Source of the DNA: Lonicera japonica
Taxonomy: Eukaryota > Streptophyta > Magnoliopsida > Dipsacales > Caprifoliaceae
Assembly: GCA_021464415.1 (NCBI GenBank)
Contig: CM038466.1
Span: 47,119,356 to 47,183,355 of the forward strand
DNA length: 64,000 nucleotides
Direction of reading: 5' to 3'
Part shown: positions 6,021 to 64,000 of the stretch, piece after piece
Layout of the letters: the number at the start of each line of letters is the position of its first letter
How positions within the stretch are numbered: the first letter of the stretch is position 1
Made by a program: the position numbers and the translations under genes
The notes under the pieces: generated by a model
What the model saw: only the letters and a program-made list of their open reading frames with translations
What the model was told of the DNA's origin: nothing
Database searches by the model: none

Positions 6021-6092
6021 AGATCGCGATCGCTATACATAGTTGAGTAAGTCCTAGATGTTACGCGATGTGAGACGAGATTGACGGTTACT

Positions 6093-6112
6093 GGGGGGGG
6101 GGGGGGGGGGGG
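6093..6112. repeat. Poly(G) run of about 20
   Basis: An uninterrupted run of G. The length is likely to be inexact in any assembly. Other long G or C runs occur near 1,739, 9,319, 26,402 and 38,522. Confidence 0.9.
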
Positions 6113-8455: not shown

Positions 8456-9127
8456 AGGAAGTATAATCAATAATTAAAAATTTGTACTTTCAAAGGATTA
8501 AGGAAAATATTGGTGGAATTAATTTGTGACTTGATGATGAACTATGAAGACTTGAGCCCCACATTAGATTTTTTAAAATTGTTGGAACATTGGGGAACGT
8601 AGGCAACCTGAGAAGTAACACTAGGCCCAGTCTATTCTAATAAAACAATTTCAATTAGTCACAATAAGACAGTGAAGCAGTAGAAGAATATTCATTCAAG
8701 TCAGCCTTTCAACAAGGGTTTGAGGGATGATGAGAGATTTGCAGAGAAAAGACCATATGGTAAAGTGTGGGGAAAAGAACAAATCTTGACAAAGGCCTTG
8801 AGCCAAATTTGTTTTAGGATTTCCCACATCTGAAACAAAACAAAAAAAGAATTACCTTTTTAAAATTTCCAGATTCTCGGAAATAACGATCTTTTGCATT
8901 TTGCATGGGTCTGGGGGTGAATTGGGCATAAAGCATGTCATATAATGACCAACACTTTCGTAAATAAAATGCACATTCATTTACGAAGCGCCAACATTTT
9001 CATAAAATAATATATAAAAATGATCTTTTACACGTCCAAATTACATAAGTATAATAATTCCAAAGAATTTTTCGACAAAAATAAAATAAAATAAAAAATA
9101 ACACGTAAAGGGTACATGGGCAGTATG

Positions 9128-27364: not shown

Positions 27365-28897
27365 TGTTGACCTAAGGTCTTAATCTTATTTTGATAATAA
27401 CAATAAATTAATCATGTGTAATTTAACATGTTTCTTGATATAAGTATACAGTTCATTTACTTGAAAAATTCAAGAAAAACATGACAAAGATCAATCTTTC
27501 ACTATTCGATCATTGGACAAGATAAGGAAGATCAAATCTCTCAATGCAAATCTTGAAGTACAACGGATCAAAAGACTGTATGAAAAGCTTCAGGGAAAAA
27601 GTTTCAAATGAAGATCAATCCGAAGAAACAAATCATTCGAAGACTCCTTAATTCAGAAATTGATGAGTCTTAAGATTTATGTAAAGTTAATTTATTGATC
27701 AAATCCCTATAGCTCAAAAGATTCAGTATATTTTAAAACAATTCAAACAAGCTTGAAATTAAATTTATTTGAAAAACATCATTTTACAAAGACCGAGTTT
27801 CAAAATAAATTCATATTAATTTTATATGATCATATTTTAAGCTCTAATAAAAATAGGTATATTAGCAATATATCTTTGAGGTTTAAAAATCATTAGAATT
27901 GTATTTGGAACTAAATTGTTAAATTGCAAAAATGTTTTTATTTTACATTTAAAATCCACTCAATTTTTGCACGGTTTTGATCTAACGGTAAGATGGAGGC
28001 CTTCACGAACTCCGATCATTTTGAAATTTTTATGGTAGTGAGAAAACAACTCCTATCACTTTTGACTAAAATTTGAGCATGATCCAACAGTCAAATGGGG
28101 AGAAATTATCAAAATAAATTTATTTTTTTTGTCAAAACTAGCTGTTGGAAAGTTTGAAAATGTATATCTTTGACCCAAAACCTTTCTTAATCATCCCCAA
28201 CGGCCATATGGTTCCGAAAGCTATATATATGAGGTCCTAGACATGTTTTAATACACTTGAATCATTCTACAAACTCATTTTACATATATACAAAGTTGTT
28301 CAAGTATTCAATTCATTTCATTGATCATATTCTTCATTTTTGAGCTATATATTTTTGATCAATCTTGATAACTCTAGTGTGAGCTTCATTTGTAATCTTC
28401 AAATACACTTGAGAGTTATTTTATTGGTGTGTATCACCACAAACAATTCATTCTTCATTTCAAAAGAGAGTTTGTCTCTTTGTAGAGCAATAGAGCATAT
28501 CTTGTGAGAAGTGTAGTGGGTTTAGCTACATTGTAAGTGTTGTGTGCATAACAACATTTGTATTGAGGTTTGATCTTCACCCGAATAAGATTGAATAGTG
28601 GAAATTGTCGGAAAACTAACCGAGCGCGGACGTATGGTCTAAGAAACCGAACTATGAGGACAAAAAGTCTTGAGCTCCAAATTGGTTCAATCTCTCTTAC
28701 TCAATCTCTTTATTTATTTGTTATATTTATTGATTGAAGTTGCTTATATTGTTGCTTATTCTTGGGATTGATTGTTTTCCTTAATAAACTTATTTAGCTA
28801 AATTGTTTTACTTAAACATTTTGAAAAAGTTTTGAATTCCGCATTAAAGTTTTTAAAACCCTATTCACCCCCCTCTAGGGTTGTTTTCCGACCAACA
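27365..28897 (+). repeat. 5' LTR of the Copia element
   Basis: 1,533 bases, TG...CA. It matches the 3' LTR almost without gaps (about 1,530 bases after removing the nested insertion) but with scattered substitutions. The insertion is therefore not recent. Confidence 0.92.
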
Positions 28898-34967: not shown

Positions 34968-37900
34968 TGTTGACCTAAGGTCTTAATCTTATTTTGATAA
35001 TAACAATAAATTAATCATGTGCAATTTAACATGTTTCTTGATATAAGTATATAGTTCATTTAATTGAAAAATTCAAGAAAAACATGACAAGGATCAATCT
35101 TTCACTATTCGATCATTGGACAAGATAAGGAAGATCAAATCTCTCAATGCAAATCATGAAGTACAAAGGATCAAAAGACTATATGAAAAGCTTCAGGGAA
35201 AAAGCTTCAAATGAAGATCAATCCGAATAAACAAATCAAAGCATTCGAAGACTCGTTAATTCAGTAATTGAGTGAGTGCTTAAGATTTATGTAAAGTTAC
35301 TTTATTGATCAAATCCCTATAGCTCAAATGTATTCATGTATATTTTAAAGATTAATTCAAACAAGTTTGAAATTAAATTTATTTGAAAAACATCATTTTA
35401 CAAAGACCGAGTTTCAAAATAAATTAATATTAATTTTAAATGATCATATTTTAAGCTCTAATAAAATTAGGTATCTTAGAAACATATCTTTGAGGTTCAA
35501 AAATCATTAGAATTGTATTTGGAACTAAATTGTTAAATTGCAAAAATGTTTTTATTTTACATTTAAAATCCACTCAATTTTTGCACAGTTTTGATCTAAC
35601 AGTAAGATGGAGGCCTTCCCGAACTCCGATCATTTTGAAATTTTTATGGTAGTTAGAAAATAGCTCCTAGCACATTTGACTAAAATTTTAGCATGATCCA
35701 ACGGTCAAATTAGGATAAATTATCAAAATAAATTTAAATTTTTTGTCAAAACTAGCTGTTGGAAAGTTTGAAAATGTATATCTTTGATCCAAAACCTTTC
35801 TTAATCATCCCCAACGGCCATATGGTTTTGAAAGCTATATATATAAGGTCCTAGACATGTTTTAATACACTTGAATCATTCTACAAACTCATTTTACATA
35901 TATACAAAGTTGTTCAAGTATTCAATTCATTTCATTGATCATATTCTTCATTTTTGAGCTATATATTTTTGATCAATCTTGATAACTCTAGTGTGAGCTT
36001 CATTTGTAATCTTCAAATACACTTGAGAGTTATTGTATTGGTGTGTATCACCACAAACAATTCATTCTTCATTTCAAAAGAGAGTTTGTCTCTTTGTAGA
36101 GCAAGAGAGCATATCTTGTGAGAAGTGTAGTCGGTATAGCTACATTGTAAGTGTTGTGTGCATAACAACATTTGTATTGAGGTTTGATCTTCACCCGAAT
36201 AGGATTGAATAGTAAAAATTGTCGGGGAACTGTGAACACCTCATTTTGCGACCCCCGCAAGAATGCTAATTTTCAAAGAAATAAACATGCATGCACGCAC
36301 AAGCATTCCTAGATGCACATGTAGTTTGTTCATGTGATACAGGTCAAAGAAGAAAGCCGAAAGGACCCCGGATGAGGAGCTACAGAATTATCGAAAATTG
36401 CCGGAATTGAAAACCGTCGAAACTCTTGAAAACTTGTGAAAGCAGAGTTACGCATTTGGGATCATCCTCAAACTTTGAGAGTTATTAGAGATTATCATGA
36501 GGAGCAGCATACTCGAAAATCAGCTCAATCCGACAGTCGGATCTCCGAAAATTCAGAAAATCGCGAGTTTATTTCGGGTGGTCAAATGGAGGTGTTATCG
36601 AAGTTAAAATGGTTTGAAGTTTGGTAAATGGATAGGCCTTATTGTGGGGAAGAGCATATTAAAAATTCAGCTTTGTTGGACACGGGATCCTCAAGAATCA
36701 ATTTGTCTACCGAGCAATTCCAGTTGAAATGTCCTTCGTAGCAAATTAAAATAAATAGTGGCCTTCCCAAAATCTGATCGACCTCAAATTTGGACACAAG
36801 TTAGAAAACATTTGGAGGGAAAACATATCAAAAAATCAGCATAATCCAACGGTTGGAAGTTCAGTTGTCGAGGTTTTTGTACGCAAGTACGTTTTCTATG
36901 CGGGAACAAACTCTTTGTACCAAGCCAAGGAGACCGAGTCCTTCCCGAACTCCGATCGTCCTCAAATTTTTACAGGGTGTAAAAGACTTATATTGGCAAT
37001 ACATATCCAAAATTCAGCATGATCCAACGGTTAGAAACTGACTTGTCGTGCAAACAAGGGACCTTGTCTACAACAAGTACCTTTCCTACGCGGACACAAA
37101 CTCTTCGTACCAATCAGAACGAAAGGGAACCTTCCCGAAATCCGATCGACCTTAAATTTTTACACGATCTATAATATTACTATTTACAACACATATCCAA
37201 AAATTAGGATGATCCAACGGTGGGAAGGCCTCGCGATAATTTCCAAGAGTCCTAGTTGCAATCTCTTTTCTTGCTCTCCAAGTATTTTCTTCAACTATAA
37301 ATAGACCCCCCTCCATTCATTATTTTCATCAACAATCAAGGGAATTTCGTGGTACACACCAAGAGATCCTTATTCTCTCCTTCCAAGAAGGCTCGGGTAT
37401 AATTTTCTCTCTCTTCTTTTATTTATTCGTCAGTTTTATAATTTATATTCTTGTCTGCATAATTTCTATTACTTGATAGCTTTTCAAAACCCTTTTTTAA
37501 ATTGTTTTCAAAACTAAAGGCGTATAATAAACCCTAATCCAATTCTAAAATAGTATTATTACTTTCTTACTTTTTCAAAAGCCCGGATTAGCGGCATTAT
37601 TATACGAAGGAATCGATAATCGCTATATATCCAATCTAACTCATAGATTGCGGTGTGTATGTGATAAATACTCGATTATGAGAGCACTGGTGCCATCTAT
37701 ACCGGTTTAATCAATAGACTTTGGTATACGATCGGTCAACTCGCCTCATATAATATCGAATATAAGATTCCACATTGAATCAGTTTCCGAAAAGCCCAAT
37801 GCTTTACAAAATCACTTGTTTCATTGCATCTATTATTATCAAACTCTCTTTTTCAAATCACACACACACACACACTTATTTTCAAAAATCATGGGCAAAC

Positions 37901-38556
37901 TAGGAAACACATAGTTTTCATCCCAACCCCAAAATCCCGATTTCTAAGGCAAGCAAGAAAAGTTATAAAGTAATAGCAATAGCATGCAATAGCTGAATTA
38001 TAACACACGCATATCCTACTCAAGAGACCGAAAGGGCGAATTGGGTGCCTAACACCTTCCCGATTCGTAACTTAATCCCCGAACCTTCGAATCAACTGGT
38101 TTCGCATATATTGTGTATAAGGGGATATTTAGTTCATAAATACGTCTCTTTTACACAAATCTTTTTTGTTTATTTAGTAAAACAAACTGGCGACTCTTAT
38201 TCTTTTCAAAACCTAATTTCAAAATCAACAAACGGAATTGCCTCCCACGAGGACCCCGGGGCGTCGCGAACGCGGGTTCTCACAGGAACTAACCGAGGGC
38301 AGACGTATGGTTTAGGAAACCGAACCGCGAGGACAAAAAGTGTTGAGCTCCAAATTGGTTCAATCTCTCTTACTCAATCTCTTTATTTATTTGTTATATT
38401 TATTGATTGAAGTTGCTTATATTGTTGCTTATTCTTGGGATTGATTGTTTTCCTTAATAAAATTATTTAGCTAAATTGTTTTACTTAAACATTTTGAAAT
38501 AAAGTTTTTAAAACACTATTCACCCCCCCCCCTCTAGGGTTGTTTTCCGACCAACA
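34968..38556 (+). repeat. 3' LTR of the Copia element, split by a solo LTR
   Basis: The LTR is in two parts, 34,968-36,230 and 38,290-38,556, about 1,530 bases together. It matches the 5' LTR at 27,365. The gap is the Tat-type solo LTR plus one copy of its target duplication. Confidence 0.92.
36231..38284 (+). mobile_element. Tat-type solo LTR nested in the Copia 3' LTR
   Basis: It starts TGTGAACACCTCATTTTG, ends GGGTTCTCACA and is flanked by a perfect 5-bp duplication, ggaac, at 36,226-36,230 and 38,285-38,289, so it is a complete solo LTR of 2,054 bases. U3 holds three diverged tandem units of about 180-190 bases, each containing 'atccaacggt' (about 36,848, 37,022, 37,212) and 'ccgatcg.cct.aaatttt'. 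The TATA box CTATAAATAGA is at 37,295. U5 holds the family block 'gagaccgaaagggcg' (about 38,024) and tggcgactct at 38,188. A (CA)n run lies near 37,860. Open frames inside are not supported. Confidence 0.9.
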
Positions 38557-48548: not shown

Positions 48549-49068
48549 TTAAAAAGATGGGAAACTTAATTTTATTTTTTTCATTTCAAAATAATGACTC
48601 TTTTCTTCTTCTTCTTCTTCTTGGAGGAGTAAGATTTTCTTGTAAGATTTTCTGTGCTGAGAACAATCACATCCTTCTTTGTTATTACACTTAATCTTCC
48701 AATGGTCTTTATTACAGGCTGACTTAAGCATCTTGCTGGTCTTTTCCATATCATCCATAAGCTTCTTTTGATTACAGATTCGTTCCACAGAATCAGTAAG
48801 ATGTTCATAAATCTTGCCGATGGAAAGATTTTTGAATTCAAGCTTCTGGATCTTAAATAGCTTTTCTGCTTTGGCGACCAATGCTTCAGGAAAGGACTGA
48901 AAGAAAACTTGTTTCAAATTAACATCATCTAAGACCGCCAATGATGTAGAATTGTTTCGACATTCGATCATAGTGGCGTTCTAAGTCCTTTTCTTTAAGG
49001 GAACAACATTTCATACCCATGAACTCTGCACGGGCAATGTCAGCATGCTTTGCGGGAGTTCCAACAAA
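48549..49068 (-). pseudogene. Endogenous pararetrovirus fragment (caulimovirid coat-protein region)
   Basis: Minus-strand open segment 48,549-48,971 plus an upstream segment in another frame. The upstream part has RAEFMGM...K-DLERHYDRMSK, and the main segment has FFQSFPEAL, a lysine-rich FKNLSIGKIYEHL stretch, ERICNQKK and a short cysteine cluster (IKCNNKEGCDC). This pattern matches my knowledge of the coat-protein and zinc-finger region of Petuvirus/Florendovirus-like Caulimoviridae integrated in plant genomes. A frameshift separates the two parts. No reverse transcriptase, movement protein or promoter of such a virus is present, so it is a dead fragment. A long GAA/CTT run (48,601-48,625) makes the C-terminal E-rich tail doubtful. 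A Gag of some other retroelement remains possible. Confidence 0.55.
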
Positions 49069-50873
49069 CTCGCGCGACAAACCCCTCTGCACCCGACCAT
49101 CCACTCTCTAACAAATCAGTCTGTCAGAAACATCACTTCAGCCGTTTGTCGCGCGACATTGTACACTATGTCGCGCGACACTTGCATATGTCGCGCGACA
49201 ATCTTCCCCAAGCAGTATAAATAGGCAAAGGTTTGCGGGAGTTCCAACAAATTTTCTCGCGAATTATCAAATCTATTCTCGACAACCCCTCTGCACCCGT
49301 ATTATACCTTATTATTATTCTCGTCACTCTCTAGCATTGAAATCTATGTACTTGTTTTATTTCTGTCAGAATAAACTTATTGCCAGCCCGCGTTCTCACT
49401 CGTGGGCGGCGATTCCGTTTGTTGCTTTGGAAATCGGTTTTTTAAGAGTCGCGTTTTACTAAACAAACGACACTAAATGTCCTCTTATACACAATATATG
49501 CAAGACCAGTTGATTCGAAGGTTCGTTACGAATCGCACAATTCTCCCTTTCGGTCTCTTGAGTAGGATATGCTCAATTCATGCATGCTATTGCTATTATA
49601 CAGCTTTTCGCGCGACAATCTAATTCCCCAAGCAGTATAAATAGGAATCTAATATTCCGAGTTGACGATCCCCAAAGGTTTGAAGACAGCAACTGGGGAT
49701 CTCAGAATTCTAAGCTTTAAATCTTATTTTTTAGTCTTTCGTCAAGCATTTTCTATTATCGTCTTATTTCTGAAGAATTATCAAATATATTCTCGACACT
49801 CGACGTGTCCCGTCTCCGGAATCGAATTCTCGAAAATATCTGAAGAAGGAAAAGATTATTATCGCCGGAGATCTCTTTGCCGTATTATATTTTCTTTCTT
49901 ATTATTATTCTCGTCGGGAAGGTAAAGAAAATCTCTTCTAGTATTTAACATTGAATATCTGTGTACTCGATTGTTTTATTTCTGTTGTTTTGTGACCCAC
50001 GTTTTATTTGAATAAATTCTGCGGGGGTCGCAAAATTGCCAAGTTACAAAGTAGTCTACCGTTTTCAAAACAAAAGACCCCGATAAAACCATTTCCAAAA
50101 TCAGAAGAGTAAGTACATTATCATCCGGATAAAATTATGTTTTCAAAACCCGGATTGATAAGACTTATCTAGGAATTAAAATCAACATATCCTGTCTTTC
50201 TATAGACTGCGACGTGTCTGATAAAACTCTCCTCAAGAGTTCCGATTCCATATTGAATTAGTTCTAATACAAGATCCAATACTTTTTCCAAATAAAATCA
50301 AACCCGAGAAAAATCGTCGTTATCTGAGGAATAACACGGTAAAACTCCCTCTAAAAGTAAAAACAACTCTTGACACTTGTATTTGCATTTTCTCAAAACT
50401 AAACATTGGATCCCGGAACACAAAGGTTTTTTATCCCCTTTCCCGTTTTCCCAAAATTAGGGTTTTCACTTAGAGAGTAGTAGACTGTCAGTAAAAGCAT
50501 CCAAGTTTTTCAACATAGAATAAACATATAAAAGACCACTAGAGACCGAAAGGGCGGAATGGGTGCTTAACACCTTCCCAAACCGTAATATAGTTTTCGA
50601 ACCCTATAGAATCCTGGTTTCGTAGACAAACGTGTAAAGAAAGGCTTAACTATAGCCTTTCCTCTTACACAACCTCTTTTGTCTGTTTTCTCGTAAAACG
50701 TACTGGCGACTCTAAACGAACCCTCCTGCATCTAGAAATAGAACATAGGAACACCTGATGTGAACCATCAAACCAAGATACTCCAGCAAAAGAAACGACG
50801 GAATCCGCTCCGATGTTTCAGACGCCCAAACAACGGGGACGAGACCCGGGAGTCGCATTTGCGGATTCTCACA
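49069..50873 (+). repeat. 5' LTR of the Tat-like element, truncated and rearranged
   Basis: It matches the 3' LTR (62,939 on) from about its position 190 onward: palindromes at 49,147, 49,169 and 49,189, TATA box gtataaatagg at 49,215, then the shared R-U5. It ends TCTCACA at 50,873. The first about 190 bases are replaced by the pararetrovirus fragment. A segment of about 420 bases, 49,226-49,645, absent from the 3' LTR, sits between two copies of the TATA region (49,215 and 49,635). U5 has 'gagaccgaaagggcgg' near 50,542 and tggcgactct at 50,704. Confidence 0.85.
49226..49645. repeat. Patchwork filler inside the 5' LTR
   Basis: This is a mosaic of short pieces. They are 'tttgcgggagttccaacaaa', copied from the junction at 49,049; 'attatcaaatctattctcgac' and 'aacccctctgcacccg', both LTR words out of order; 'tattattattctcgt' and 'gtacttgttttatttctgt' (LTR); and 'gaataaacttattgcca' (LTR). 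An inverted stretch (about 49,390-49,600) follows that matches the reverse complement of the U5 of the solo LTR type at 36,231-38,284. The filler is flanked by a direct repeat of the palindrome-TATA region. Confidence 0.75.
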
Positions 50874-50874
50874 G

Positions 50875-50892
50875 TGGCAACTCTGCTGGGGA
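50875..50892 (+). promoter_or_regulatory. Primer-binding site of the Tat-like element
   Basis: tggcaactctgctgggga starts two bases after the LTR end. The family form tggcgactct..gctgggga differs by one base. It is probably complementary to a tRNA-Arg-type primer, as I recall for Tat/Ogre elements. Confidence 0.75.
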
Positions 50893-51631
50893 TACTGTTA
50901 GAAAACTAGACTCTTATATGTGGACTCTTGTTTATCTGTTGAATACTTGCTTTTACTGCTTTCCCTACTTATGTTAATTGATTGAGAATAAACCATTTTT
51001 CTAAAAAAATGGGAGTTTTTCAAAAAATACGTAATAAAGATAATGATATTTGTGAAATCAACCTTTCAAACTTTACACGCACTTTCACAAATTATGCATT
51101 GGTTCTACGAGTGTGGATTTACCCCAAACCCTCGGAAGTATTATAAGTGAGTAGGGAGTTGGCTTGCTTGGGCCAACATAAACCGAAAGCATTTACTTCC
51201 ACTCTCCTTGGCCAAGTACGCCCCCGAGGTATATCGAGTGACGAGAACGCTCACGTACCCAGGAAATATATCAAAAGGTTCTTCCACGTACCCGCCCCTG
51301 GGGTATATCACAAGGTCTTGCCAAATAAGAGGGAGCCTGAAGCTTTAACCGTTCATACACCTGCGCTGCATATAAGATTGAGTCAAATAAAACACTTGTC
51401 AAACAGCCGTAGGGGATGTACCACCCTACGACTTACTTTATAACACCTTTTTGAAACCCGAGTCTTTTCTCGGCGATTTTTTATGGTTCTTTTGACAAAA
51501 ATCGAGTCGCATCGTAGTCTTCCTTCATCTTCGCCACGTGGTTTCATCTACAGTCGTAATACGACGACAGACTAGAAGGTTGGGCCGGTCGAGATCATAC
51601 CGAAAGATTAGTAAGACCAAGCACAACCGAA
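50893..51631 (+). other. Untranslated leader of the Tat-like element
   Basis: About 740 bases between PBS and gag. An open frame at 51,147-51,443 has no recognisable motif. Long leaders are usual in this lineage. Confidence 0.6.
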
Positions 51632-52423
51632 ATGGCCGATGGGCCCGAGAATCAAGAGACAGAGCAGAGCCTAGCCGAGGCGTCTGCACCTCAGCCAACT
51701 TTAGCCGAGATGCATTGTTTGCTAATGACCGTCAGCATGAATCTAGCAAGCCTCACAAACGAACATCAGAATACCCGAGTCCGGGTAGAAGAGCTGTCAG
51801 CCGGACGGGCCGCACCACCGGGGTTTGAACGACTACCACTGAATCGAGATCAAGGGCAGTCATCGCAAGTACTTCCCCCAGTCCAAGGAACCAATCCACC
51901 ACCAACAGGCCCCGTCATGACCGATCCCGTTCAGACCGATCCCAATAATCAAAATCAATGGGCCCCGGATTCAGGCCCCACTTACCAACAATAAGAGCTA
52001 CCCATCATCTGGCCACAACCTCAGCAAGGCCTTGATCCCCAATACCAACCATGGCCACAAGTCCCCGCAAGAACTATTCCACCATCGGCCCCAGTAGCCC
52101 CTCCTAATGAGTACCCAGACATCAACCGACTTCGGGTAGTATATGCAGAATCGGTTATAGCTCGGGAACAGCCTGACGAGGTGTCAAGAGAGAGCGAAGA
52201 AATGAAGAAACTGAAAGAGCAGATGAAGGTTCTGCAAAGGGGGATTTTTCTGATAAAAGGGGCAGACGAGATCACAGATATGAACGCCTTCTCCCTCTAC
52301 CCAGAAGCAAGATTACCTCAGGGTAAGGCTAGGGAGGAGTCACTCCTAGATTTACTTTTTAAACTTGTACCTGTAAGCACTACTATCAATGAAGAAGACT
52401 CTATTTTGCGTTATCCTTATTGA
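51632..52423 (+). pseudogene. Gag N-terminal part, core deleted
   Basis: ATG at 51,632 (MADGPENQETEQ). One frame runs to 52,423 with a single in-frame TAA at 51,992-51,994. The N-terminal part is followed by a Pro/Gln-rich linker (PSAPVAPPNEYPDINRL) and a charged coiled-coil segment (EEMKKLKEQMKVLQRG) ending near FSLYPEARLPQ. In intact Tat gag the capsid core should start just after this point. Instead the sequence runs into unrelated residues and a stop. Capsid core, zinc knuckle and protease are missing. Gag would assemble the particle. Confidence 0.75.
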
Positions 52424-52434
52424 TGTTAATTCTG

Positions 52435-55400
52435 TAATTGCCTATATGGAGCTGGAAAGTTTAAACGAACACCCTGAACGGGAGGAGCAGCGTATACAGA
52501 GTGAGGAAGGAGACACTCTCGTGATTAATCTCGAGACAGAAAAGGAAAGAAAAGAGGTCCGTATTGGGGCAAGTCTAAGTGAGACAGAAAGAAAGGAATT
52601 CACACAAACTCTGAATGAGTATGTGGATATCTTCGCCTGGTTCCTATGCAGATATGCCGGGTTTGAACAGCCAGATAGTCATGCACGAGATACACACCAA
52701 GCTGAAATTTAGGCCCGACAAACAGAAGTTGAGGAAACTTACACCAGAATGGTCCCTGAAAGTAAAAGAAGAAGTGATGAAACAACTAAGTGTGGGGTTC
52801 TTGCGGATAATCGAGTACCCTTCATGGTTAGCCAACATTGTGCCCGTTCCAAAGGCAAATGGGAAAGTCCGCATGTGCATAGATTACCGAGATCTCAATA
52901 AAGCTTGCCCGAAAGACGATTTCCCATTACCCAACATTGATCTAATAGTAGATAACACTGCTAACCATGCCTTGAAATCATTCGTGGACAGTTTCGTCGG
53001 GTATAATCAGATCAAGATGCACCCGGATCACCAAGAGAAAACAGCATTCATCACACCGTGGGGAACATACTGCTACACCGTCATGCCATTCGGGCTGAAG
53101 AATGCCAGAGCAACATATCAGAGGGCGGTAATAGCTATCTTCCACGACATGATTCACAAAGAAGTAGAGGTATATGTGAACGACATGATAATCAAGTCGA
53201 AAGAGAGGGAAGGACATGTACCAGCCTTGCGAGCCTTTTTTGACCGGCTCCGCCAGTATCAGATGAGACTCAATCCGCAGAAATGTGTGTTTGGAGTAAC
53301 CAAAGGGAAACTCCTAGGCTATGTCGTCAGTAAAAAAGGAATCGAGATAGACCCTGCCAAGGTCCGAGCTATTTGAGACATGCCCGAACCTCGTACCGAG
53401 AAAGAAGTCCAGGAATTTTTGGGTAATTTGCAGTACATCAACAGGTTCATCTCTCAGCTTACTCAAACTTGCGAACCTCATCTTCAAACTCCTGAGGAAG
53501 TCTTCACCAGGAGAATGGGACGATCAGTGCCAGGAAGCTTTTGATAGAATAAAAAACTACCTCTCCAACCCCCCAGTATTAGCCCCACCACAGACCGGAC
53601 TACCACTAATCCTATACCTGACCGTCATTGATTCGGCTGCAGGAGCCATGCTAGCCCAACATCTAACCGATACACGAAAAGAGTAGGCCATTTATTACAT
53701 CAGCAAGAAGCTGTCCCTATTTGAGATAAACTACACGCCATTGGGGAAATCATGCACCGCTCTCGTCTGGGTAACACATAAATTACGGCATTACATGCTG
53801 ACTTTCCCAGTCATCCTGGCATCACGAATTGATCAGTTGAAATACCTCTTTGAAAAACCAGCTCTCTCAAACCGTATGGAAAAATGGTTATTCTTGCTCT
53901 TTGAATTCGACATCACCTACGTGACCCAGAAGGCGGTCAAAGGCAAGATCATAGCTGATTACCTGGCCCACAATCCGATATTGGGAGACATGGTAGAGGA
54001 AGTCGAATTCCCGGACGAAACCTATCATGAATGTCGAGATCGATGAAGACTGGAAATTGTACTTTGACGAGGCCGCCAACCGAAACGGAAACAGGATAGG
54101 CATCCTGTTAGTCTCTCCAGACCAAACCCACTCCCCTGGTATCGTATCGTCTAGACTTCTTCTGCAGCAACAACATGGCCGAATATGAAGCCTGTATAAT
54201 TAGGTTAGAGATCGCACTCCAAGGGGGTATAAAGAGAATACAGGTATACGGAGATTCAGCATTAGTGGTCCACCAAGTTCTGAAGGAATGGAAGATCAGA
54301 GATGAAAAATTAGTCCCTTACCTTACTCGACTAGAGGATGTCGCAGGAAGGTTTGAGCATTCAGAGTTTTATTATGTCCCCAGGTCACAAAACAGTTTTG
54401 CTGACGCACTAACAACCCTGACATCCTTGATCGATATCCCGGAGGGGATGGAAGAGATAACTCTTACAGTGCAAAGAAGGTCAGTACCAACACACTGCAT
54501 GGCCCTTGAGGTAGAGAATGAAGAGAATGGGGATTCAACCACTTGGTTTTACGACATCTGGAACTTGTTAAAAAATCACCAATATCCCGAACAAACAGAC
54601 AAGAGAACCTGGGTTACGCTCAGAAGATTAGCATCAAGATTCATACTTTGCGCTGGGAGGCTATATAAGATGAACTATGACGGGACCCACCTCCAATGTC
54701 TCACTGAGGAAGAATCCGTCAAAGTGATGGATCAGATACACGGGGGCGATTGTGGACCTCACATGAGCGGCTATACACTTGCCCGCAAGATCATCAGACA
54801 AGGCTATTACTGGTTTACCCTGCAGAATGACTGCGTTAATCACGTACGCCGTTGCCACAAGTGCCAAATCTATGCTAAATCTCAGAAACTTCCTCTGAAA
54901 GAGTTGTACAACATGACTGCTCCCTGGCCTTTCGCGACCTGGGGAATTGACATCATTGGGAAGATTTCACCCAAAGCCAACAACGGCCATGAATTCATAC
55001 TAGTGGCCATTGACTACTTAACCAAATGGGTAGAAGCCGAGTCTTTCCAAACCCTTGACGCCAGGAAGGTTGCCTCGATTCATCAAACGAAATATCATCT
55101 GTCGGTATGGGGTCCCACACGAGATCATCTCAGACAACGGCACTCACTTCGAAGGAGAGGCTAATTCTGTCATGGAGGAATACGGTATTACCCGACACAG
55201 ATCGTCGCCATATAGACCGCAAACTAATGGGGCAGTTGAAGCCGCCAACAAGAATCTGAAGAATATCCTAAGCAAGATGACCGACACCTGCCGGGACTGG
55301 CAAGAGAAATTACCATACGCATTGTGGGGATACCGCACCACCGAGAGGGTCTCCACCAGGGCAACCCCGTTTTCTCTTACATACGGGATAGAAGCAGTCC

Positions 55401-55789
55401 TCCCTGTTGAGTTAGAGGTCCCCTCTCTTAGAGTAATGCTAGAAAATCAAGTCAATGAACTGGAGTGGGTCCAGGCACATTATAACGAGCTGGCCCTACT
55501 TGATGAAAAAAGATTGAAAGCCGCGTACCACCACCAAAGGTATCAGAAGAGAATTGCTCGAGCATTTAACCAGAAAATGAAGACTCGGGGTATCAATGAG
55601 AAAGACATCGTGTTGAAGGAAATTCGAGAGCCAGCCAGGGACCCAAGGGGAAAGTTTGGACAGAAGTGGCCAGGGCCGTACATTGTCAAAGAGATCGATA
55701 CAGGGGGTGCCGCTATACTCACTGACTTAGACGGACAGTTACTGCATTCACCTGTCAACATAGATCGTCTGAAGAAGTATTACCAATAG
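52435..55789 (+). pseudogene. Pol of the Tat-like element (RT, RNase H, second RNase H, integrase), broken
   Basis: The pre-RT segment has VRIGASLSETERKEF. RT (about 52,690-53,376) has VPKANGKVRMCIDYRDLNKA, YNQIKM and MPFGLKNA. Its active site reads VYVNDMIIK in place of YVDD (Asn codon at 53,179-53,181), and TGA follows VRAI at 53,374. RNase H (about 53,520-54,040) has LPLILYLTV and YTPLGKSCTALVW, with a TAG near 53,683. The second RNase H has WKLYFDEAANRNG and MAEYEACI (54,050-54,440) with a frame change between. Integrase has HGGDCGPHMSG...CHKCQ, WGIDIIG, a frameshift near 55,080, SDNGTHF and NGAVEAANKN, and a C-terminal chromo-less end at 55,789. The integrase catalytic residues are all still present. 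Confidence 0.92.
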
Positions 55790-55860
55790 ATATAACATGT
55801 ATAGATAAGAACTACGTAAACCTGAGCCCCCAACTCAAATTTGTGTTTTTAGAAAAATCA

Positions 55861-55915
55861 AAAAGGGGAACGTAGGCAACCTGAGAAGTGACTTCAGGCC
55901 CGGTTTAAACTTTGT
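55861..55915 (+). other. Conserved 3' motif after pol
   Basis: 'ggggaacgtaggcaacctga' with 'gaagtgacttcaggccc' follows. The same motif is at about 8,593 in the old Tat-like element. It marks the lineage but its function is unknown to me. Confidence 0.7.
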
Positions 55916-56009
55916 AAAGAAATTTATTTCCCATAAAACAGTCCCTCGTATATTATTAAGGTGGTTCAGAACACCGAAGTTACAAAGGAGATACAACATG
56001 CTAAAAAAC

Positions 56010-57272
56010 CTAATCCCTAGGGGTTGGCCAAGCATAGTCCTCAGTAGCCAAGTCAATTCGAGCCTCATCAAGGATTTGGTACGCAAGGACAATACTCTTC
56101 TCTGTAGGCTCAGAATCCGTGAATCGGAACCACTCCATTTGAAAGGGATCATCAATTAGCTCCCCTTCCAAAGACCCCCAACGAGAACAAACGATGTTAG
56201 CCCGGAAGGGTCTGGTAATACCTAAGCGGGCATAGTTGAACTGACGAGTCAGTCGAGCACGCCACATCCTCTCTACCGATAAATAAAGAAACATGCGGGG
56301 TCACAAATTTAGACTCAAAGGAGAAGTTGTTCAGACCAAGGGGAATGTCCTGAGGAACGTTGAACTGCCGAAGAAGACGTCCTGGGAGATAAAAAGAGGT
56401 CAAGCAGAGTTCGCGGAGCCGAACATAGTTCTGACTACCTGTACTAAGCACCATCGCCCTCAGCTTCCACCAAGGAATGTTCCACCGGATAGCCCGAAAG
56501 TTCTCCGAAAACTACACCGCCCAATCAGAGGAAGACATGGTCAAAGCACCAAAGAGGGGACGACAGAAAAAGTGTGTTGGGTTGTCAAGTCGCACCCCGT
56601 TGAAACCCACCGATCGGAAAACGCTCTAACAGCCACATGTACAGCAAACGAGGGCTTCCCTTAAAAAAGGGTGAGGCTCCCCTTTGAAAATCATCTAGGC
56701 CATTCAAAGTCTCTACAAGAACGATCGGCACTATAGACTCCCCATTTCTAGCCTGGTAAATCAGACTCAGAATAGTCGGATCAACACGGGAAAGAGCCCG
56801 TCACCAGTAATATATCGGAAACAAGACAGATCAAGGCCGCCGCAGTATGCCCCACACTATAAGAAGCTTTCTCTTCGTAACGATGAAAAAACCTCACCAT
56901 TTTATGGAGGTCAAGAAGCCCGTTGACAATAAAACCATCACAGGCCGCTTGGGGAGTAGCCAACAGGGCAATCAGCATATCTCGATGACCAATTTCTTCT
57001 ATGGGAACAGCCATCAGAAGACGAACATCAGAACGCAACAACCAGGAGAACTCTTCATAAGTCGGGCAGAGCTCATCTAGTCCAAAACGGAAAAGATGAT
57101 CCGTAGGGCTCCAAAAATATAAAGCACCTAACAGAAAGGAAAAATCTACAGGACTATGGCACCAGCCCGCTAAAGGGCTAAAGGCACCGAAGTTTAAACC
57201 ATTCTTAGAAGATATCAGAACATCTCGGGTTTCAACATAAGAAAAATCAGAATTTGTGCGATAAGAAGACAT
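56010..57272 (-). pseudogene. Antisense gene A: DUF7745-like ORF, frameshifted
   Basis: ATG at 57,272 starts MSSYRTNSDFSYVETRDVLI. The first segment has SPVDFSFLLGALYFWSPTDH, then FRFGLDELCPTYEEFSWLLR, a signature I associate with the plant DUF7745 family found in Tat-type elements. Further downstream in other frames are LLYMWLLERFPIGG and IRWNIPWWKLRAM, also typical. A final segment ends PTPRD-stop at 56,010. At least three frame changes (near 56,800, 56,600 and 56,290) break it. Function unknown. It is transcribed towards pol, whose stop is 220 bases away. Upstream lie a TATA box (57,311-57,302) and two TGTCGCGCGACA palindromes. The TATA box is only about 30 bases from the ATG, so the leader would be very short. 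Confidence 0.65.
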
Positions 57273-57301
57273 TTTTTGGTGTGGGGATGAAGGAAGATGG
57301 G

Positions 57302-57381
57302 TGTATTTATAGCAAAAAAGAGGGTCATGTGCCTGTTTGTCGCGCGACAAACCCATGCCCATGAGGGATTGTCGCGCGACA
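57302..57381 (-). promoter_or_regulatory. Promoter of antisense gene A: TATA box and two palindromes
   Basis: Minus-strand CTATAAATAC at 57,311-57,302. TGTCGCGCGACA is at 57,338-57,349 and 57,370-57,381. The nearer palindrome is 27 bases upstream of the TATA box. Function is inferred from arrangement. Confidence 0.6.
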
Positions 57382-57873
57382 ATCCCATTTAGGGTTACCC
57401 TATTTTTGTTTTCCTTACACATAAGAGTCATCCTTGCCAAAAGAATCACTTCTGGATGCATTCTTGTTCTCAATTTGTTCTTTTACAGGAATCCTATGTG
57501 TCACTACGCTACAAGGTATGGCTCCTAAATCACTGACTCATATATATGCATATATATATACCTTCCACAAAATAATAGTATATCATCAGACACAAATAAA
57601 GATTTTCATAAATCCAATGAAAGAACAGTTTTTAAAACTAAATTTCTGTCTAAAAACGTGTCTAAAAAAATAAAAACTACATATATGTCTGAACTAACTA
57701 AATGCAAAAAAAAGCTAATCTATCTAGGCGCGCTTCGACACGCTCCCACTATCGCCCGAACCCTCCTCCGGAGTAGGATCGACTGCTGGGACATCCGAAT
57801 GAGAAGGAACTGCTGCCTGAGAGGGCCCCGTAGACTGGACCGGTGCCGTAGGGCGGATTACCGAAGACCGAGA
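57382..57873. other. Spacer between antisense genes A and B
   Basis: About 490 bases, including a TA-rich run (57,540-57,560). No gene recognised; it would include the terminator region of gene B. Confidence 0.5.
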
Positions 57874-60800
57874 TCACCTAGAGGTCCGGCTGGTACTCCT
57901 CCGAGACTCCGTCCTAGCACGAGAGGAAGACAAAGGGTCATCCGCCCGTAGGGAAACATCGATCGCCCTCTGATAGTCGCGCATGTAAATCGTAGGGTCT
58001 CGACCAACGTACTGAAGCAAGTTCCAGCTATATAGATACTGGGAGTGCCAGGCTCTCAGATCCGCCACACGCACGCTCACCCGCTGCAAAAAGAGAAAAG
58101 GAAAAGAATCAGTGCAGTAAAGATAAATTAACATGGATATGAAGAGATATTGAGGGAAGATAAAACGTATACCTCGTCATCAGAACGGCCACCCAAGTAA
58201 TCGAATGTATCCTCAGGGAGAGGATACTCAGGCACCGTATATCGACGTAGACCAGCACCAATATAAGAGATGTCCCAAGAAAGTGGCGACAGGTCTATCA
58301 GATGAACAAACGAACCTGCCGGTATAGCAGCAGAAGTGGACCCACCCTCCTCACGGATCGGGAACAAGGGAGGTCGAGAAGAAGAACACCCAAAACCTTG
58401 GAGATCGGGCCGGAGGGCCCATAGCCGTCGACAGAAGAGGGGTCAGTGTGGCAAAAGTACGAATACCTGGGCGATCCACCAAAGTCGTCGCTCTCAGAGG
58501 CGGGACCCCGCTAGAAGGAGTGGTCACAGCAGCAAGGAGGGGTCTGCCCAAACTGCTCATAGTCAACACCGAAGTCAGCAGGCTCCCAGGACCGCTCTGA
58601 AAAATCTGCTGCACCTCCCTCAGCAGCCTCAAAAACTACCCTCGGAGATACCGATGGACCAGTAGGGAACTCAAAACCCTCGGTGGGCTGCTCCTCTCTA
58701 GGCATCCGTCTGAGGAGGCTGCTCTGGAACAGCCGATGTCCCACCTCCCTCACCGCCCTCAGGCCTATCATCACCTCCCTCGAGGCCTATCATCGCCTCC
58801 CCCAGCACCAGCAGGGACGTCCCTCTCTCCCTCAGGATCATCATCGTTAGAGTCCAAAATGTTGTCCCTCTAATCGGGGACAGGCGGCAGCTGACCGGGA
58901 ACTGTCTGGGACAAATGAGCCTGCCCTCGTATATAGTTGGGATCGCCTCCCAACGCCTGGTACCTCTCATAAAAAACCCGACCCCGAGTCCCCTTCGGCT
59001 CCCTCATCAAGTAACGGGCAGCGAAGACAGCATAATCTCCCTCCTCGGTGAATGTCTGAAAACCGAGCCTGTCAATCAACGCCTGTACCGTCACCGGGTC
59101 AATCTCACCCATCCGCCTCATCAGAACCGACGGAAACAAAGGAACTCTAGGCCACTGGGCCGGGGTATGCTGACGGATAACTCTCTCGCTCAAGTAGAAG
59201 TGGAGGCCGTACTCATCCCTAATAAGTCGCCTGGTCCTCGAGGCAGTCAGAGCACGGCCATATCCGAAGTGGAGGCCCAAATCACCCCAGGGGGCCCACT
59301 CAATCGGAACAAAAACAAATTTTATTTCAGTTATTTGTATTCTATTTTACTAATTAAAAATTATTAAAGAGAGAATACTAAAATGTTTACCTGCTCCTCC
59401 AATAGGTCATGGACGCGTATAAGCCGCGATGAATCGGCGGAAGAAGGGGAAACTGATCCTCGTTCTTAATGAGGAGATCCACCTGGGCGCGACCCAGACG
59501 GGTATAAGCCACGAACCAACTCTGAAAAAGGAGACATAAAGAACATTAGCAACAATCAGCAGATAAAATGCAAAAAAACAACCTAGTGCACCAACAATGC
59601 CATCTGCTGTCAGACGCAAGGGGACATCGATCTGTATAGGGACCCCTGAAGGAATCCCGATCAAAGAAAATAAGTCGAGGGGGGTCATCGTCATCTCCCC
59701 CCAGCTCCAGTGAAAGGTATGAGTGGTGTCCCACCAGTGACAGGCTAGAGCCGACACCAACACAGCTGCTCTAGACACCCGCTCCGAGAGGGCATCGAAG
59801 AAAGAACCGAAAGGAGTCGCAAGGAGCAAATCATGGATAGGGGATGGTGCCTGTCGCCACTCTAAGGAAATGGTGTTGGAGGAACCCCAACCACGACCAA
59901 CCCACTGCAGACAAAAGGAACGAGTACAGGATTATAAGGGTACTTTGGTGTAATTATGAGAGATATGGGGTTATAAGGGTAAATTATGTAATTTTCCAAA
60001 ACCTGAGGGTACTTTGGTGTAATTATGAGAGATATGGGGTTATAAGGGTAAATTATGTAATTTTCCAAAACCTGAGGGTACTTTGGTGTAATTATGAGAG
60101 ATATAGGGTTATAAGGGTAAATTATGTAATTTTCCAAAACCTGAGGGTGCTTTGGTGTAATTCTGAGAGACATAGGGTTATAAGGGTAAATTATGTAATT
60201 TTCCAAAACCTGAGGGTACTTTGGTGTAATTATGAGAGATATGGGAGTTATAAGGGTAAATTATGTAATTTTCCAAAACCTGAGGGTACTTTGGTGTAAT
60301 TATGAGAGATATAGGTTATAAGGGTAAATTATGTAATTTTCCAAACCAGAGGGTACTTTGGTGTAATTGTGAGAGATATAGGGTTATAAGGGTCAATTAT
60401 GTAATTTTCCAAACCTGAGGGTATTTTAGTGTAATTATGAGAGATATAAGGTTATAGAGGTAAATTATGTAATTTTCTAAACCTGAGGGTATTTTGGTGT
60501 AATTATGAGAGATATAGGGTTATAGGGTAAATTATGTAATTTTCCAAACCTGATGGTATTTTGGTGTAATTATGAGAGATATAGGGTTATAAGGGTAAAT
60601 TATGTAATTTTTCAAAACCTGAGGGTACTTTGGTATAATTATGAGAGATATAGGGTTATAAGGGTAAATTATGTAATTTTCCAAACCTGAGGGTACTTTG
60701 GTGTTATTATGAGAGTTATAGGGTTATAAGGGTAAATTATGTAATTTTCCAAACCTGAGGATACTTTGGTGTAATTATGAGAGATATAGGATTATGAGGG

Positions 60801-61212
60801 TACATTATGTAATTTTCCAAAACCTAAGAGGTATCACAGGTAAAAGTATGTGTTCGCTAAAATCGGACACTATTTTTAGGCAAACATGCATACTAACATT
60901 GTTTAAAATACATACAGGAAACAACATAAGTAATAGAACAGATAAAAACACGAAAAGAAGACATACCAGAGACCGTCGGCGGATCTCGTGAGAAACATGC
61001 TCCATCAAGAGCCATGGAACATCTGGAACTGGAGCAACCCGGGTGACGTCTCGGTATACCACCACCTGACCGCGGTCCACCCCATCCTTACCGTACCAAT
61101 CAAGGTCCTCCCAGTCATCGTGATGAGGGCTACACCGAAGAACGCCCTGAGCATCGGTAAAGGTGACCTCCTCCTGGTCACCCTTGAGTCGATCCGGCTC
61201 CGCGGGATCCAT
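57874..61212 (-). pseudogene. Antisense gene B: spliced plant mobile domain (PMD) gene, decayed
   Basis: The likely exons are 61,212-60,967 (MDPAEPDRLKGD..., phase 0 donor CTG|GTATGT), 59,904-59,583, 59,521-59,391, about 59,341-58,870, several short open pieces 58,870-58,370, about 58,367-58,173 and 58,083-57,874. Exon 2 carries HWWDTTHTFHWSWGEMTMTP and LIGIPSGVPI, the PMD core (Trp-Gly-Glu-Met-Thr). The next exons have VAYTRLGRAQVDLL and VPIEWAPWGDLGLHFGYG. PMD proteins include Arabidopsis MAIN and MAIL1, nuclear factors in gene expression and transposon silencing, and many transposon-encoded copies. Stops after PPVPD and frame changes between 58,870 and 58,370 indicate decay. The junction of exons 2 and 3 is out of phase by my reading, and the third intron (about 49 bases) is short. 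These details are uncertain. Confidence 0.75.
59925..60838. repeat. 69-bp minisatellite, 13 copies, inside intron 1 of antisense gene B
   Basis: The word 'actttgg' (or gctttgg/attttgg/attttag) starts at 59,942, 60,011, 60,080, 60,149, 60,218, 60,288, 60,355, 60,423, 60,491, 60,558, 60,627, 60,695 and 60,763. The spacing is 67-70, mostly 69. A unit reads 'actttggtgtaattatgaga' then 'ataagggtaaattatgtaat' and 'ttttccaaaacctgagggt'. Because 69 is 23 codons, the left half is open on both strands (up to 151 codons). I read this as a side effect of the period, not as a gene. Confidence 0.95.
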
Positions 61213-61346
61213 CTGAGTGTAAGTAAAGTATAAGAAAACGAAAAGTCAGAAAAGCGGCAGGGCTTCCGCGCTTGGAAAAAGAGAGAAGGAGGGCTAGAGA
61301 GAGAAAGAGAAAGGAGAGAATGAGGTGGAATGAGCTCAGCAAGGGA

Positions 61347-61431
61347 CTTATATAGTGAAGAGGATTGTCGCGCGACAAATGGCCACATTGTCGCGCGACA
61401 AAGAGCCAGAGCACCGAAGTGTCGCGCGACA
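61347..61431 (-). promoter_or_regulatory. Promoter of antisense gene B: TATA box and three palindromes
   Basis: Minus-strand TATATAAG at 61,354-61,347, 135 bases upstream of the ATG at 61,212. TGTCGCGCGACA is at 61,366-61,377, 61,389-61,400 and 61,420-61,431. The leader is CT-rich. Function inferred. Confidence 0.65.
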
Positions 61432-61439
61432 ATCACCCC

Positions 61440-62380
61440 CCTTCCCTGATTTTTTGACCTTTGTCTCATTTTATCTCCTACAGGGGTACTTCAGAGAAGC
61501 AGTTTTCGAAAAAATTGCTAAAAACCGCACACCCTAGGATGAAAAATTCAAGGAGGACTTCCGAATCATCTCTCCGAAAAAGCGAGAACAAAATACAAAC
61601 AGTTAAAGTAATCTCTGATCTCCTAGAAGAACTGAGACCATCAATGAGAAAAAGTAAAATATCAAGATAAGACGGGAATAGAAAAAATTGAAAGAGTAGA
61701 AACGAGAAAAAGCCCGCATGAACGCCCAAAGCGAGAGAGAGAAACAGAAATGCAGAGTGACAGGGAGAGCCACACCAAAAGTGACAGCTAGGACCAAAAC
61801 CGGCTCAGGGCTTCGTTTTGGGTGAGTAAGGCTCCTAATCACAACAAAGTGATAAAAAGACTCCTGGTCAAAAACAGAGAAGGCCAGGAAAAGTCTTTCC
61901 CAAAAGAGGGAGAAATAAGGGCATCGAAAAATAGAATACGATGTGGGCCCACCAAAAGAGAAAAATAAGAAGAGAGTAGAGATTAGAGATTAAACTTTCA
62001 AATAAATTTTCTTTTCAGCACGTTACAGAAAGAGATGATTTGGAAAAACCTCGGACCATCCCTCTGCGGAAGAGCAAAAGAAATCCGAAAACTGCCTTCT
62101 GGAAGAAATATCTTCACTCAAGGGAAATATGAGAGTAAAAGTTCGGAAAAGATGCAGGAAAACGGACATCCATATAAAATATTAGACCTCGAGAAGCTCT
62201 TTCACCCTCACAAAAATTTCTCTCACTCACTCTAGCAGTCTAAGAGAGACAACAATTAAAATCACCAGAGCACAAACACAAGCCCTCTTCGGAGGCTAAT
62301 CACAAACACAAGCCCTCGCCAGAGGCAAAATTACTCATGAAAGCCCTCCCAGAGGCAATTTTCTTTCTTCTTACAGATCA
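61440..62380 (+). other. 3' untranslated region of the Tat-like element
   Basis: It contains the lineage words 'agggagagccacaccaaaag' (61,762) and 'gagtaaggctcct' (61,823), shared with the old element at 10.81 kb. Short 'agccctc..c.gaggc' hairpin units start at about 62,280. Open frames here have no motifs. Confidence 0.6.
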
Positions 62381-62384
62381 AAAG

Positions 62385-62740
62385 CCCTCCCAGAGAGGCA
62401 CAGTGTAGCAATGGTAGTCCTCCCACCTAAGGCGAAGCCCTCCCAGAGAGGCACTGTGTAGCAATGGTAGTCCTCCCACCTGAGGCGAAGCCCTCCCAGA
62501 GAGGCACAGTGTAGCAATGGTAGTCCTCCCACCTGAGGCGAAACCCTCCCATAGAGGCACAGTGTAGCAATTGTAGCCCTCCCACCTGAGGAGAGAAGAT
62601 CAAAAGCCCTCCCAGAGAGGCACAGTGGGGCAATGGTAGTCCTCCCACCTGAGGCGCAAAAGTGGAACAAAAGGTAGTCCTCCCATCTGAGGCTAATAGA
62701 ACAATGGTAGTCCTCCCATTTGAGGCAAGCAGAGCAAATG
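62385..62740 (+). repeat. 53-bp minisatellite upstream of the 3' LTR
   Basis: The word 'gcaatggtag' (or gcaattgtag) starts at 62,408, 62,461, 62,514 and 62,567, period 53, followed by diverged units. Units contain 'agccctcccagagaggc' and 'tcctcccacctgaggc', both with short inverted repeats. It occupies the same place as the unrelated minisatellite at 11.36 kb in the old element. Confidence 0.93.
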
Positions 62741-62928
62741 AAAGCCCTTGAAAGAGGTAATGAGGTAACAAAAGCCCTCTCCGGAGGCAAAACCAAACAC
62801 AAAGCCCTCTCCGGAGGCACTCCCGAACACTTTTTTTGCATACGCACACTTTCTTAGAGTTCTCGCGGGAGCCATGGACCATGGTCTCTTCCAGTCGCCT
62901 CAATTCCTTACAAGCAAGGAGCTTGTGT

Positions 62929-62938
62929 CGAGAGGGTC
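62929..62938 (+). promoter_or_regulatory. Polypurine tract of the Tat-like element
   Basis: cgagagggtc immediately before the 3' LTR, identical to the tract at 11,968-11,977 of the old element. Confidence 0.75.
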
Positions 62939-64000
62939 TGTAGACACCCCGATCCGTGACCCCCGCAAGAACCCTAACGACCTTCGAAAATACTATTTTT
63001 GTGTCCGGCACCCACCCGAGCACCCGAAGCTACCCCGAAAGGGTTTGTTGGCCAACAAACCTATTTTTAAGAGAGATTGTCACACGACATATCACATTGT
63101 CGCGCGACAATCACCTCTTTGTCGCGCGACAAACCCCTCTGCACCCGACCATCCACTCTCTGACAAATCAGTCTGTCAGAAACATCACTTCAGCCGTTTG
63201 TCGCGCGACATTGTACACTATGTCGCGCGACACTTGCCCTTTCTGGGGATATGTCGCGCGACAATCTTCCCCGAGCAGTATAAATAGGCCAACACCCCCA
63301 AGGATTTGAAGACAGCAACTGGGGATCTCAGAATTCTAAGCTTTAAATCTGATTTTTTAGTCTTTCGTCAAGCATTTTCTATTATCATCTTATTTTTGAA
63401 GAATTATCGAATCTATTCTCGACATTTCGACGTGTCCCGTCTCCAAAATCGAATTCTCGGAAAAATATCTGAAGAAGGAAAAGATTATTATCGCCTGAGA
63501 TCTCTCTGCCGTATTATATTTTCTTTCTTATTATTATTCTCGTTGGGAAGGTAAATAAAATCTCTTCTAGTATTTAACATTGAATATTTGTGTACTTGTT
63601 TTATTTCTGTTGTTTTGTCCACGTTTTATTTGAATAAACTTATTGCCAAGTTACAAAGTAGTCTACCATTTTCAAAACAAAAGACCCCGATAAAACCATT
63701 TCCAAAATCAGAAGAGTAAGTACATTATCATCCGGATAAAATATCTGTTTTCAAAACCCGGACTGAAAAGACTTATCTAGGAATTAAAATCAACATATCC
63801 TGTCTCTTCTATAGACTGCGACGTGTCTGATAAAACTCTCCTCAAGAGTTCTGATTCCTTATTGAATTAGTTCTAATACAAGATCCAATACTTTTTCCAA
63901 ATAAAATCAAACCCGAGAAAAATCGTCGTTATCTGAGGAATAACACGGTAAAACTCCCTCTAAAAGTAAAAACAACTCTTGACACTTGTATTTGCATTTC
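62939..64000 (+). repeat. 3' LTR of the Tat-like element, runs off the window
   Basis: Starts TGTAGACACCCCGATCCG. U3 has TGTCGCGCGACA at 63,098, 63,120, 63,199, 63,221 and 63,252 and a decayed copy TGTCACACGACA at 63,078. The TATA box gtataaatagg is at 63,278, 15 bases after the last palindrome. R-U5 sequence then matches the 5' LTR closely to the window end. Confidence 0.92.

Follow-up and report, generated by a model that had tools for sequence, protein, structure and literature searches.

A 12-bp palindrome at the LTR and antisense promoters of a Tat-type Ty3/Gypsy retrotransposon family of Lonicera japonica: a candidate operator for one twofold-symmetric factor

A 64,000-nucleotide stretch of the Lonicera japonica genome (contig CM038466.1; the whole stretch is referred to as the window) contains an element that, judged by its predicted protein domains, is a Tat-type Ty3/Gypsy retrotransposon (Ogre/Retand type) and that carries two genes, A and B, on its antisense strand. 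The 12-bp palindrome TGTCGCGCGACA is present just upstream of TATA boxes in the long terminal repeats (LTRs) of this element and at the promoters of both antisense genes. From the sequence, we lean towards the palindrome being the operator of one twofold-symmetric factor that would act at all three promoters of the family, since the site has the marks to be expected of a dedicated operator: it is exactly symmetric, lies at three promoters that are otherwise unrelated, forms arrays on a single helix face and, among the copies sampled, is restricted to one family. An exact recount agreed with the earlier note, which was made from the window alone, in that the window contains 13 exact copies of the palindrome, confined to four clusters and found nowhere else in the 64 kb. 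The clusters and their TATA boxes are organized as follows:

49147..49200, + strand: three palindromes TGTCGCGCGACA (49147, 49169, 49189) upstream of the 5' LTR TATA box
49216..49223, + strand: 5' LTR TATA box TATAAATA, gap of 15 from the last palindrome
49606..49643, + strand: second core promoter inside the 5' LTR insertion, a near-copy TTTCGCGCGACA with TATAAATA at 49636
57338..57381, - strand: promoter A, two palindromes (57338, 57370; exact matches)
57304..57311, - strand: gene A TATA box TATAAATA, gap of 26
61366..61431, - strand: promoter B, three palindromes (61366, 61389, 61420; exact matches)
61347..61354, - strand: gene B TATA box TATATAAG, gap of 11
63078..63263, + strand: 3' LTR, five exact palindromes (63098, 63120, 63199, 63221, 63252) and a degenerate slot at 63078
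63279..63286, + strand: 3' LTR TATA box TATAAATA, gap of 15

No exact TGTCGCGCGACA was found in 100 dinucleotide shuffles of the window (maximum 0), and the hexamer CGCGCG occurs 15 times in the 64 kb, each time inside a palindrome site or a near-copy. A search of the window that allowed up to two mismatches added degenerate copies at 49068, 49606 and 63078, all within the LTRs. The three sites of the 5' LTR are LTR duplicates of sites in the 3' LTR, and the window therefore represents 10 independent sites, not 13. Among the 20 half-sites of these 10 sites the preceding base is T in 15 and the base before that is A or T in all 20, a weak common flank pattern which suggests that the real site is probably wider than the 12-mer, about WTTGTCGCGCGACAAW. 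Site 57370 of promoter A is embedded in a 22-bp perfect palindrome. The claim that the site is intact 13 times holds for the exact copies but is overstated, as slot 63078 reads TGTCACACGACA in the 3' LTR of the window and other copies of the family contain slots that have lost CpGs. The first U3 slot, equivalent to 63078, reads TGTCGCACGACA in most other U3 copies that have it, so that the variant at this slot is probably ancestral; it may be functional.

Each cluster is followed by a TATA box just downstream on the matching strand, as had been claimed, although the gaps are 15, 26, 11 and 15 rather than the approximately 15, 27, 12 and 15 given before. For a point chosen at random in the element, the probability of a TATA[AT]A[AT] similarly placed within 30 bp is 0.022. 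Between 49000 and 64000, all four occurrences of TATAAATA have a palindrome or the near-copy at 49606 just upstream, and 10 out of 15 occurrences of the looser TATA[AT]A[AT] lack such a site. When the palindromes were masked, the LTR shared matches of at most 8 nt with promoter A or B (E value of 1.5 or worse), no more than expected by chance. The sequence around the palindromes is thus not common to the LTR and the internal promoters, which bears out what had been stated from the window, and the palindromes of the LTR and of the internal promoters were not copied as part of longer segments.

The host assembly (886 Mb, 967 contigs) was searched for the exact palindrome, which occurs 29,561 times; a reversed control pattern occurs once. 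A total of 34 stretches were read: 14 surrounded palindromes within 0.56-4.54 Mb, at the beginning of contig C1, and 20 were 10-kb windows drawn at random from C1-C4. A site within 130 bp of a family match was counted to that match. All 58 sites in these stretches (53 from the 14 palindrome-picked stretches and 5 from two of the 20 random windows) belong to one Tat-type Ty3/Gypsy family, with 45 located in the U3, 4 in promoter A and 9 in promoter B. The random windows alone (200 kb) contributed their 5 sites from two copies of the palindrome-bearing family, and within this largely palindrome-picked sample the 12-mer was not found spread through unrelated sequence. Some TATA distances recur in the other copies: 15 (9 out of 45 sites) and 46 (8 out of 45) in the U3, 26, 58 and 59 in promoter A, and 11, 34, 64 and 65 in promoter B. 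Promoters A and B of the other copies repeat the distances seen in the window, and the remaining U3 sites lie at other distances or are TATA-less.

Neighboring sites in the window are mostly 20-23 or 31-32 bp apart (one pair is separated by 79 bp), and between two of the sites the 5' and 3' LTRs are distinguished by an indel of 11 bp, approximately one helical turn. For the window, the phase concentration was 0.75 (P = 0.016) when the 79-bp gap was counted and 0.85 (P = 0.005) when it was excluded, an exclusion chosen after the data were seen. Genome-wide, 13,722 pairs are spaced at 18-42 bp (control, 0) and only 50 of these are spaced at 24-29 bp, namely at 29 bp (24 pairs), 24 bp (10), 26 bp (7), 28 bp (6) and 25 bp (3), so that 34 of the 50 lie at the edges 24 and 29. 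Among the matches listed (the first 50 of the 13,722, all on contig C1), 31 pairs are 20-23 bp apart and 19 are 30-32 bp apart, which corresponds to about two or three helical turns. The same two spacing classes are retained, as judged by eye, in copies whose intervening sequence differs. The arrangement looks like an array of sites on the same face of the DNA for a twofold-symmetric protein.

Conservation was assessed in promoter pieces from 14 U3, 4 A and 5 B copies, the window included, most of them palindrome-picked. Outside the CpGs, positions within the palindrome slots depart from the majority base in 8 out of 494 cases in the U3, 0 out of 48 in promoter A and 0 out of 90 in promoter B, compared with 440 out of 3347, 58 out of 679 and 95 out of 1072 outside the slots. 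CpGs are kept in 198 out of 221 cases within U3 slots, 21 out of 24 in A and 42 out of 45 in B (outside the slots 141 out of 179, 2 out of 8 and 16 out of 19, respectively). After a correction for the picking, in which one slot was subtracted for every copy with a single intact slot and the window was left out, intact slots exceed flanking 12-mers in the U3 (65% vs. 34%, 13 copies) and in promoter B (73% vs. 39%, 4 copies). The rearranged U3s of L016, L017, L018 and L022 retain their palindromes despite differing sequence between them. The earlier note had argued from the intactness of the CpGs, and that argument proved weak. In three LTR pairs, 4 out of 42 palindrome CpGs differ between the two LTRs (42 out of 167 elsewhere), a comparison in which the recognition of slots favors palindromes and undercounts their loss. 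Palindromes therefore decay after insertion too, and for both reasons no claim is made that single copies are protected.

The element that carries the sites is organized as follows:

49068..50873, + strand: 5' LTR, rearranged (alignment with the 3' LTR; end CACA at 50870-50873)
from 50875, + strand: primer-binding-site-like TGGCAACTCTGCTGGGGA, directly after the 5' LTR (read by eye)
51560..55789, + strand: gag-pol remains, with reverse transcriptase at 52615-53376, RNase H in frames 53351-54046, additional RNase H at approximately 54163-54414 and integrase to 55789 (Pfam)
56784..57272, - strand: antisense gene A, first 163 amino acids from the ATG at 57272 (homologue P0001 begins alike, MSSYR)
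59410..61212, - strand: antisense gene B, with exon 1 at 61212-60967, a predicted intron at 60966-59905 and a plant mobile domain (PMD) exon from 59904 (splice sites by eye)
62939..64000, + strand: 3' LTR, begins TGTAGACACC and runs past the window end

Pfam matches to RVT_1, RT_RNaseH, RVT_3, Integrase_H2C2 and rve_3 were identified, in the order reverse transcriptase, RNase H, second RNase H and integrase (RT_RNaseH in frames 53351-54046, followed by RVT_3 before Integrase_H2C2 in frame 54112-55161). An additional RNase H between the RNase H and the integrase is the order described for Ogre/Retand elements, and an extra open reading frame (ORF) encodes a PMD in 57% of Ogre elements and Transposase_28 in 23% of Retand elements (PMC6317226). 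Gene B supplies the PMD-encoding extra ORF of the Tat clade, and both antisense genes sit between pol and the 3' LTR. The gag and pol genes of the window copy are broken into several frames with stops. The left end of the 5' LTR is absent before 49068, and the second core promoter is carried by an insertion of approximately 420 bp at about 49230-49660, which has the appearance of a patchwork of diverged LTR pieces, possibly a result of template switching. Nine other LTR copies, whose flanks are unrelated, start at the same TGTAGA as the 3' LTR does at 62939. Ahead of the 3' LTR, at 62329-62709, lies a 53-bp tandem repeat that contains CCTCCCA units.

The PMD (PF10536) fragment of gene B was matched with an E value of 3.1e-8 and a score of 33.6, just below the Pfam cut-off of 34.9, and all seven homologues of gene B are annotated with PF10536. 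Its predicted first intron contains a 68-bp tandem repeat array (59868-60863). Gene B may also include open frames that continue down to 58873, for which no Pfam match was obtained. The first 163 amino acids of gene A also gave no Pfam match. A later open frame on the gene A side (56200-56511) showed a sub-threshold PMD hint (E value 0.23), and a relationship of gene A to the PMD exon was dropped, as a profile-profile comparison gave a probability of 0.1 and no support.

Related elements and other databases were also searched for the palindrome. A second Tat-type family has TATAAATA in its LTR and no palindrome in two copies (window 36231-38284 and L030), and a third Tat-like copy, L043 (reverse transcriptase 47% identical), contains no exact site in 10 kb and no palindrome of at least 10 bp within 400 bp upstream of a candidate antisense TATA-like sequence at 8961. 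On these three copies, the palindrome is not general to such promoters. The copy at 36231-38284 is a solo LTR (TGTGAACACC...TTCTCACA); it has TATAAATA at 37296, lacks TGTCGCGCGACA and carries three repeats of approximately 109 bp upstream of the TATA box, and a 91% identical copy is present at L030:6785-8829. CCAACGGTTGG-like sequences were considered as a rival motif of this second family and dropped, as only one of the three is unchanged between the window and L030; CCGACAGTCGG, located further up, is unchanged between the two. L043 carries antisense ORFs beside its Tat-like pol (4721-9033) together with a tandem array whose repeats are 70-73 bp long (a 57-nt reference is present in 14 copies), and one of these ORFs presumably resembles Transposase_28. 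Elsewhere in the window, direct repeats with 95% identity (27365-28617 and 34968-36231) flank ORFs which we take to be Copia-like. A search of IMG/VR for the palindrome pair gave 0 matches, and no relatives of the reverse transcriptase or the PMD were confirmed in viral contigs. Among bacteria and archaea (one genome per species), the pair was found in eight stretches, all titled bacterial, which was taken as coincidence; one contig of a Bacteroidales metagenome-assembled genome contains two palindrome pairs 84 bp apart (L008:1838-1975) and another contig of the same genome (L007) contains one pair.

The earlier proposal of a symmetric-factor site common to sense and antisense promoters fits the position of the sites, the independence of their flanks, their confinement to one family in the sample, their conservation in the U3 and promoter B, and their helical spacing. 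One factor would bind the palindromes at the sense LTR promoter and at the promoters of both antisense genes, where five (3' LTR), two (A) and three (B) sites upstream of the TATA box would place the bound proteins on one face of the helix, where they could act together. We give slightly better than even chances to the factor being made by, or working with, the element's own antisense genes (the PMD protein B or protein A). Like foamy-virus Tas or the VANC proteins, the factor would drive or protect the three promoters, and if it came from the antisense genes it would complete a feed-forward loop in which the entire element is increased in expression or released from silencing. What we infer from these patterns is that a protein binds the site, that bound copies cooperate, where the factor comes from, and that it activates rather than represses. 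Several observations weigh against such an operator or against its proposed source. Six out of 45 U3 sites have no TATA box within 200 bp, and promoter A shows no real excess of intact slots after correction (50% vs. 42%, 3 copies). The spacing counts are not independent events, as the copies share ancestry and descent inflates the contrast. The predicted fold of gene A is poor (pLDDT 46.6), no DNA-binding domain was recognized by Pfam in the scanned pieces of gene A or B, and the DOWN motif printed for MORC1, CATGCAGTTT, is unlike TGTCGCGCGACA.

Concerning the source of the factor, we give a little under even chances to the specific reading in which the element encodes its own sequence-specific regulator in antisense (the PMD protein B, protein A or both together). 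This regulator would bind the helically phased sites of the LTR as well as those upstream of its own gene or genes, in a Tas- or VANC-like circuit. The precedents of Tas, VANC and the PMD proteins put an element-encoded factor slightly ahead of a host factor. A host transcription factor that binds the palindrome and was recruited by the family at all three promoters is nevertheless a reasonable, if less probable, explanation, and retrotransposon U3s commonly use host factors. By their consensus sites, the E2F, ARF and CAMTA families presumably fit the palindrome less well than the candidate, a INDETERMINATE DOMAIN (IDD) zinc finger. The sites of such proteins (TTTGTCGTATT and TTGTCT; IDD and MGP sites in PMC7349898) begin with letters close to the half-site TTTGTCGC; the 10 independent sites contain 20 half-sites, of which 15 read TTGTCGC and 7, counted by eye, TTTGTCGC. 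However, in its printed form the IDD site lacks palindromic symmetry and leaves the invariant CGCGCG center unexplained. A host factor should also have its site in at least some host promoters, whereas none of the 58 sampled sites lies outside the family (a small sample, with 5 sites from 200 kb of random windows).

It is improbable that the site acts as DNA, either by keeping off or drawing in chromatin marks, through its cluster of CpGs or a cruciform, or as a site of U3 recombination or template switching. The three CpGs per site, the gain and loss of palindrome-bearing segments among U3 copies and the rearrangement of the window 5' LTR near its palindromes would agree with such a role, which leaves unexplained why TATA distances recur, why the site occurs at promoters outside the LTR, why spacings of 24-29 bp are almost absent and why the TGT...ACA ends are exact. 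Least probable of all is a simple copying of a palindrome-bearing U3 fragment to the internal promoters, with similarity due to descent only: some neighboring U3 sites do resemble tandem copies of a 21-22 bp unit (by eye), but this origin was rejected on the masked comparison of the LTR, A and B promoters, the clusters differ in spacing and flanks, and the flanks diverge by 9-13% where the non-CpG slot positions diverge by 0-1.6% (in mostly palindrome-picked copies).

A single short site common to the LTR and antisense promoters makes the function of the antisense genes directly testable by binding and reporter assays, and with 29,561 exact copies the genome offers a natural resource for studying spacing and affinity. 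Should the factor be encoded by the element, the family would represent a self-regulation circuit in a plant LTR retrotransposon, would provide a DNA target for a retrotransposon PMD protein and would bear on the origin of the PMD silencing proteins MAIN and MAIL1. No phased palindrome linking LTR and antisense promoters was present among the literature matches listed, in a search that left subscription papers mostly outside; among the matches listed for the letters of the site there was no plant-transposon title, and those listed for a plant element-encoded transactivator and for Ogre with palindrome and antisense ORF contained nothing on point.

Tat elements with antisense accessory genes have been described before, as has the proposal that these genes regulate the element that carries them. 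Antisense genes are found in many flowering-plant Tat-type elements, with their function unknown and a regulatory role already proposed, and those of Grande have their own promoter (PMC7264820, PMC11963269). The family described here resembles maize Grande with its gene23 and other Tat/Retand elements with antisense ORFs in having antisense accessory genes for which a regulatory role is proposed, and differs in that the available parts of these papers mention no promoter site shared with the LTR. For PMD proteins, a tie to genes with a promoter motif has a parallel in Arabidopsis, where MAIN and MAIL1 are needed for the expression of genes with the "DOWN" promoter motif (PMC7156037) and direct binding of the PMD proteins to that motif was left open by the authors (PMC7156037, PMC9899485).

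The foamy-virus protein Tas (Bel-1) binds both the LTR and the internal promoter in a feedback loop, and the two bound promoters show little sequence relatedness (PMC7390438). The likeness lies in accessory genes with their own internal promoters and in one factor, here proposed, for internal and LTR promoters; the difference is that one exact palindrome occurs here at one sense and two antisense promoters and that the factor is only proposed. VANDAL elements are DNA transposons, unlike the LTR retrotransposon studied here, and their VANC proteins counteract silencing by removing DNA methylation at the motif. As a precedent from plants for a protein that a transposon encodes and that has private motifs, each VANC protein recognizes short motifs arrayed within its own transposon, and these motifs are nearly confined to the element, located in non-coding regions and gained and lost with repeats (PMC5735166). 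An arrayed motif nearly confined to its element is likewise what was found here (all 58 sites, 53 of them palindrome-picked), whereas the VANC21 motif YAGTATTAY is non-palindromic, with its copies in one orientation (PMC5735166).

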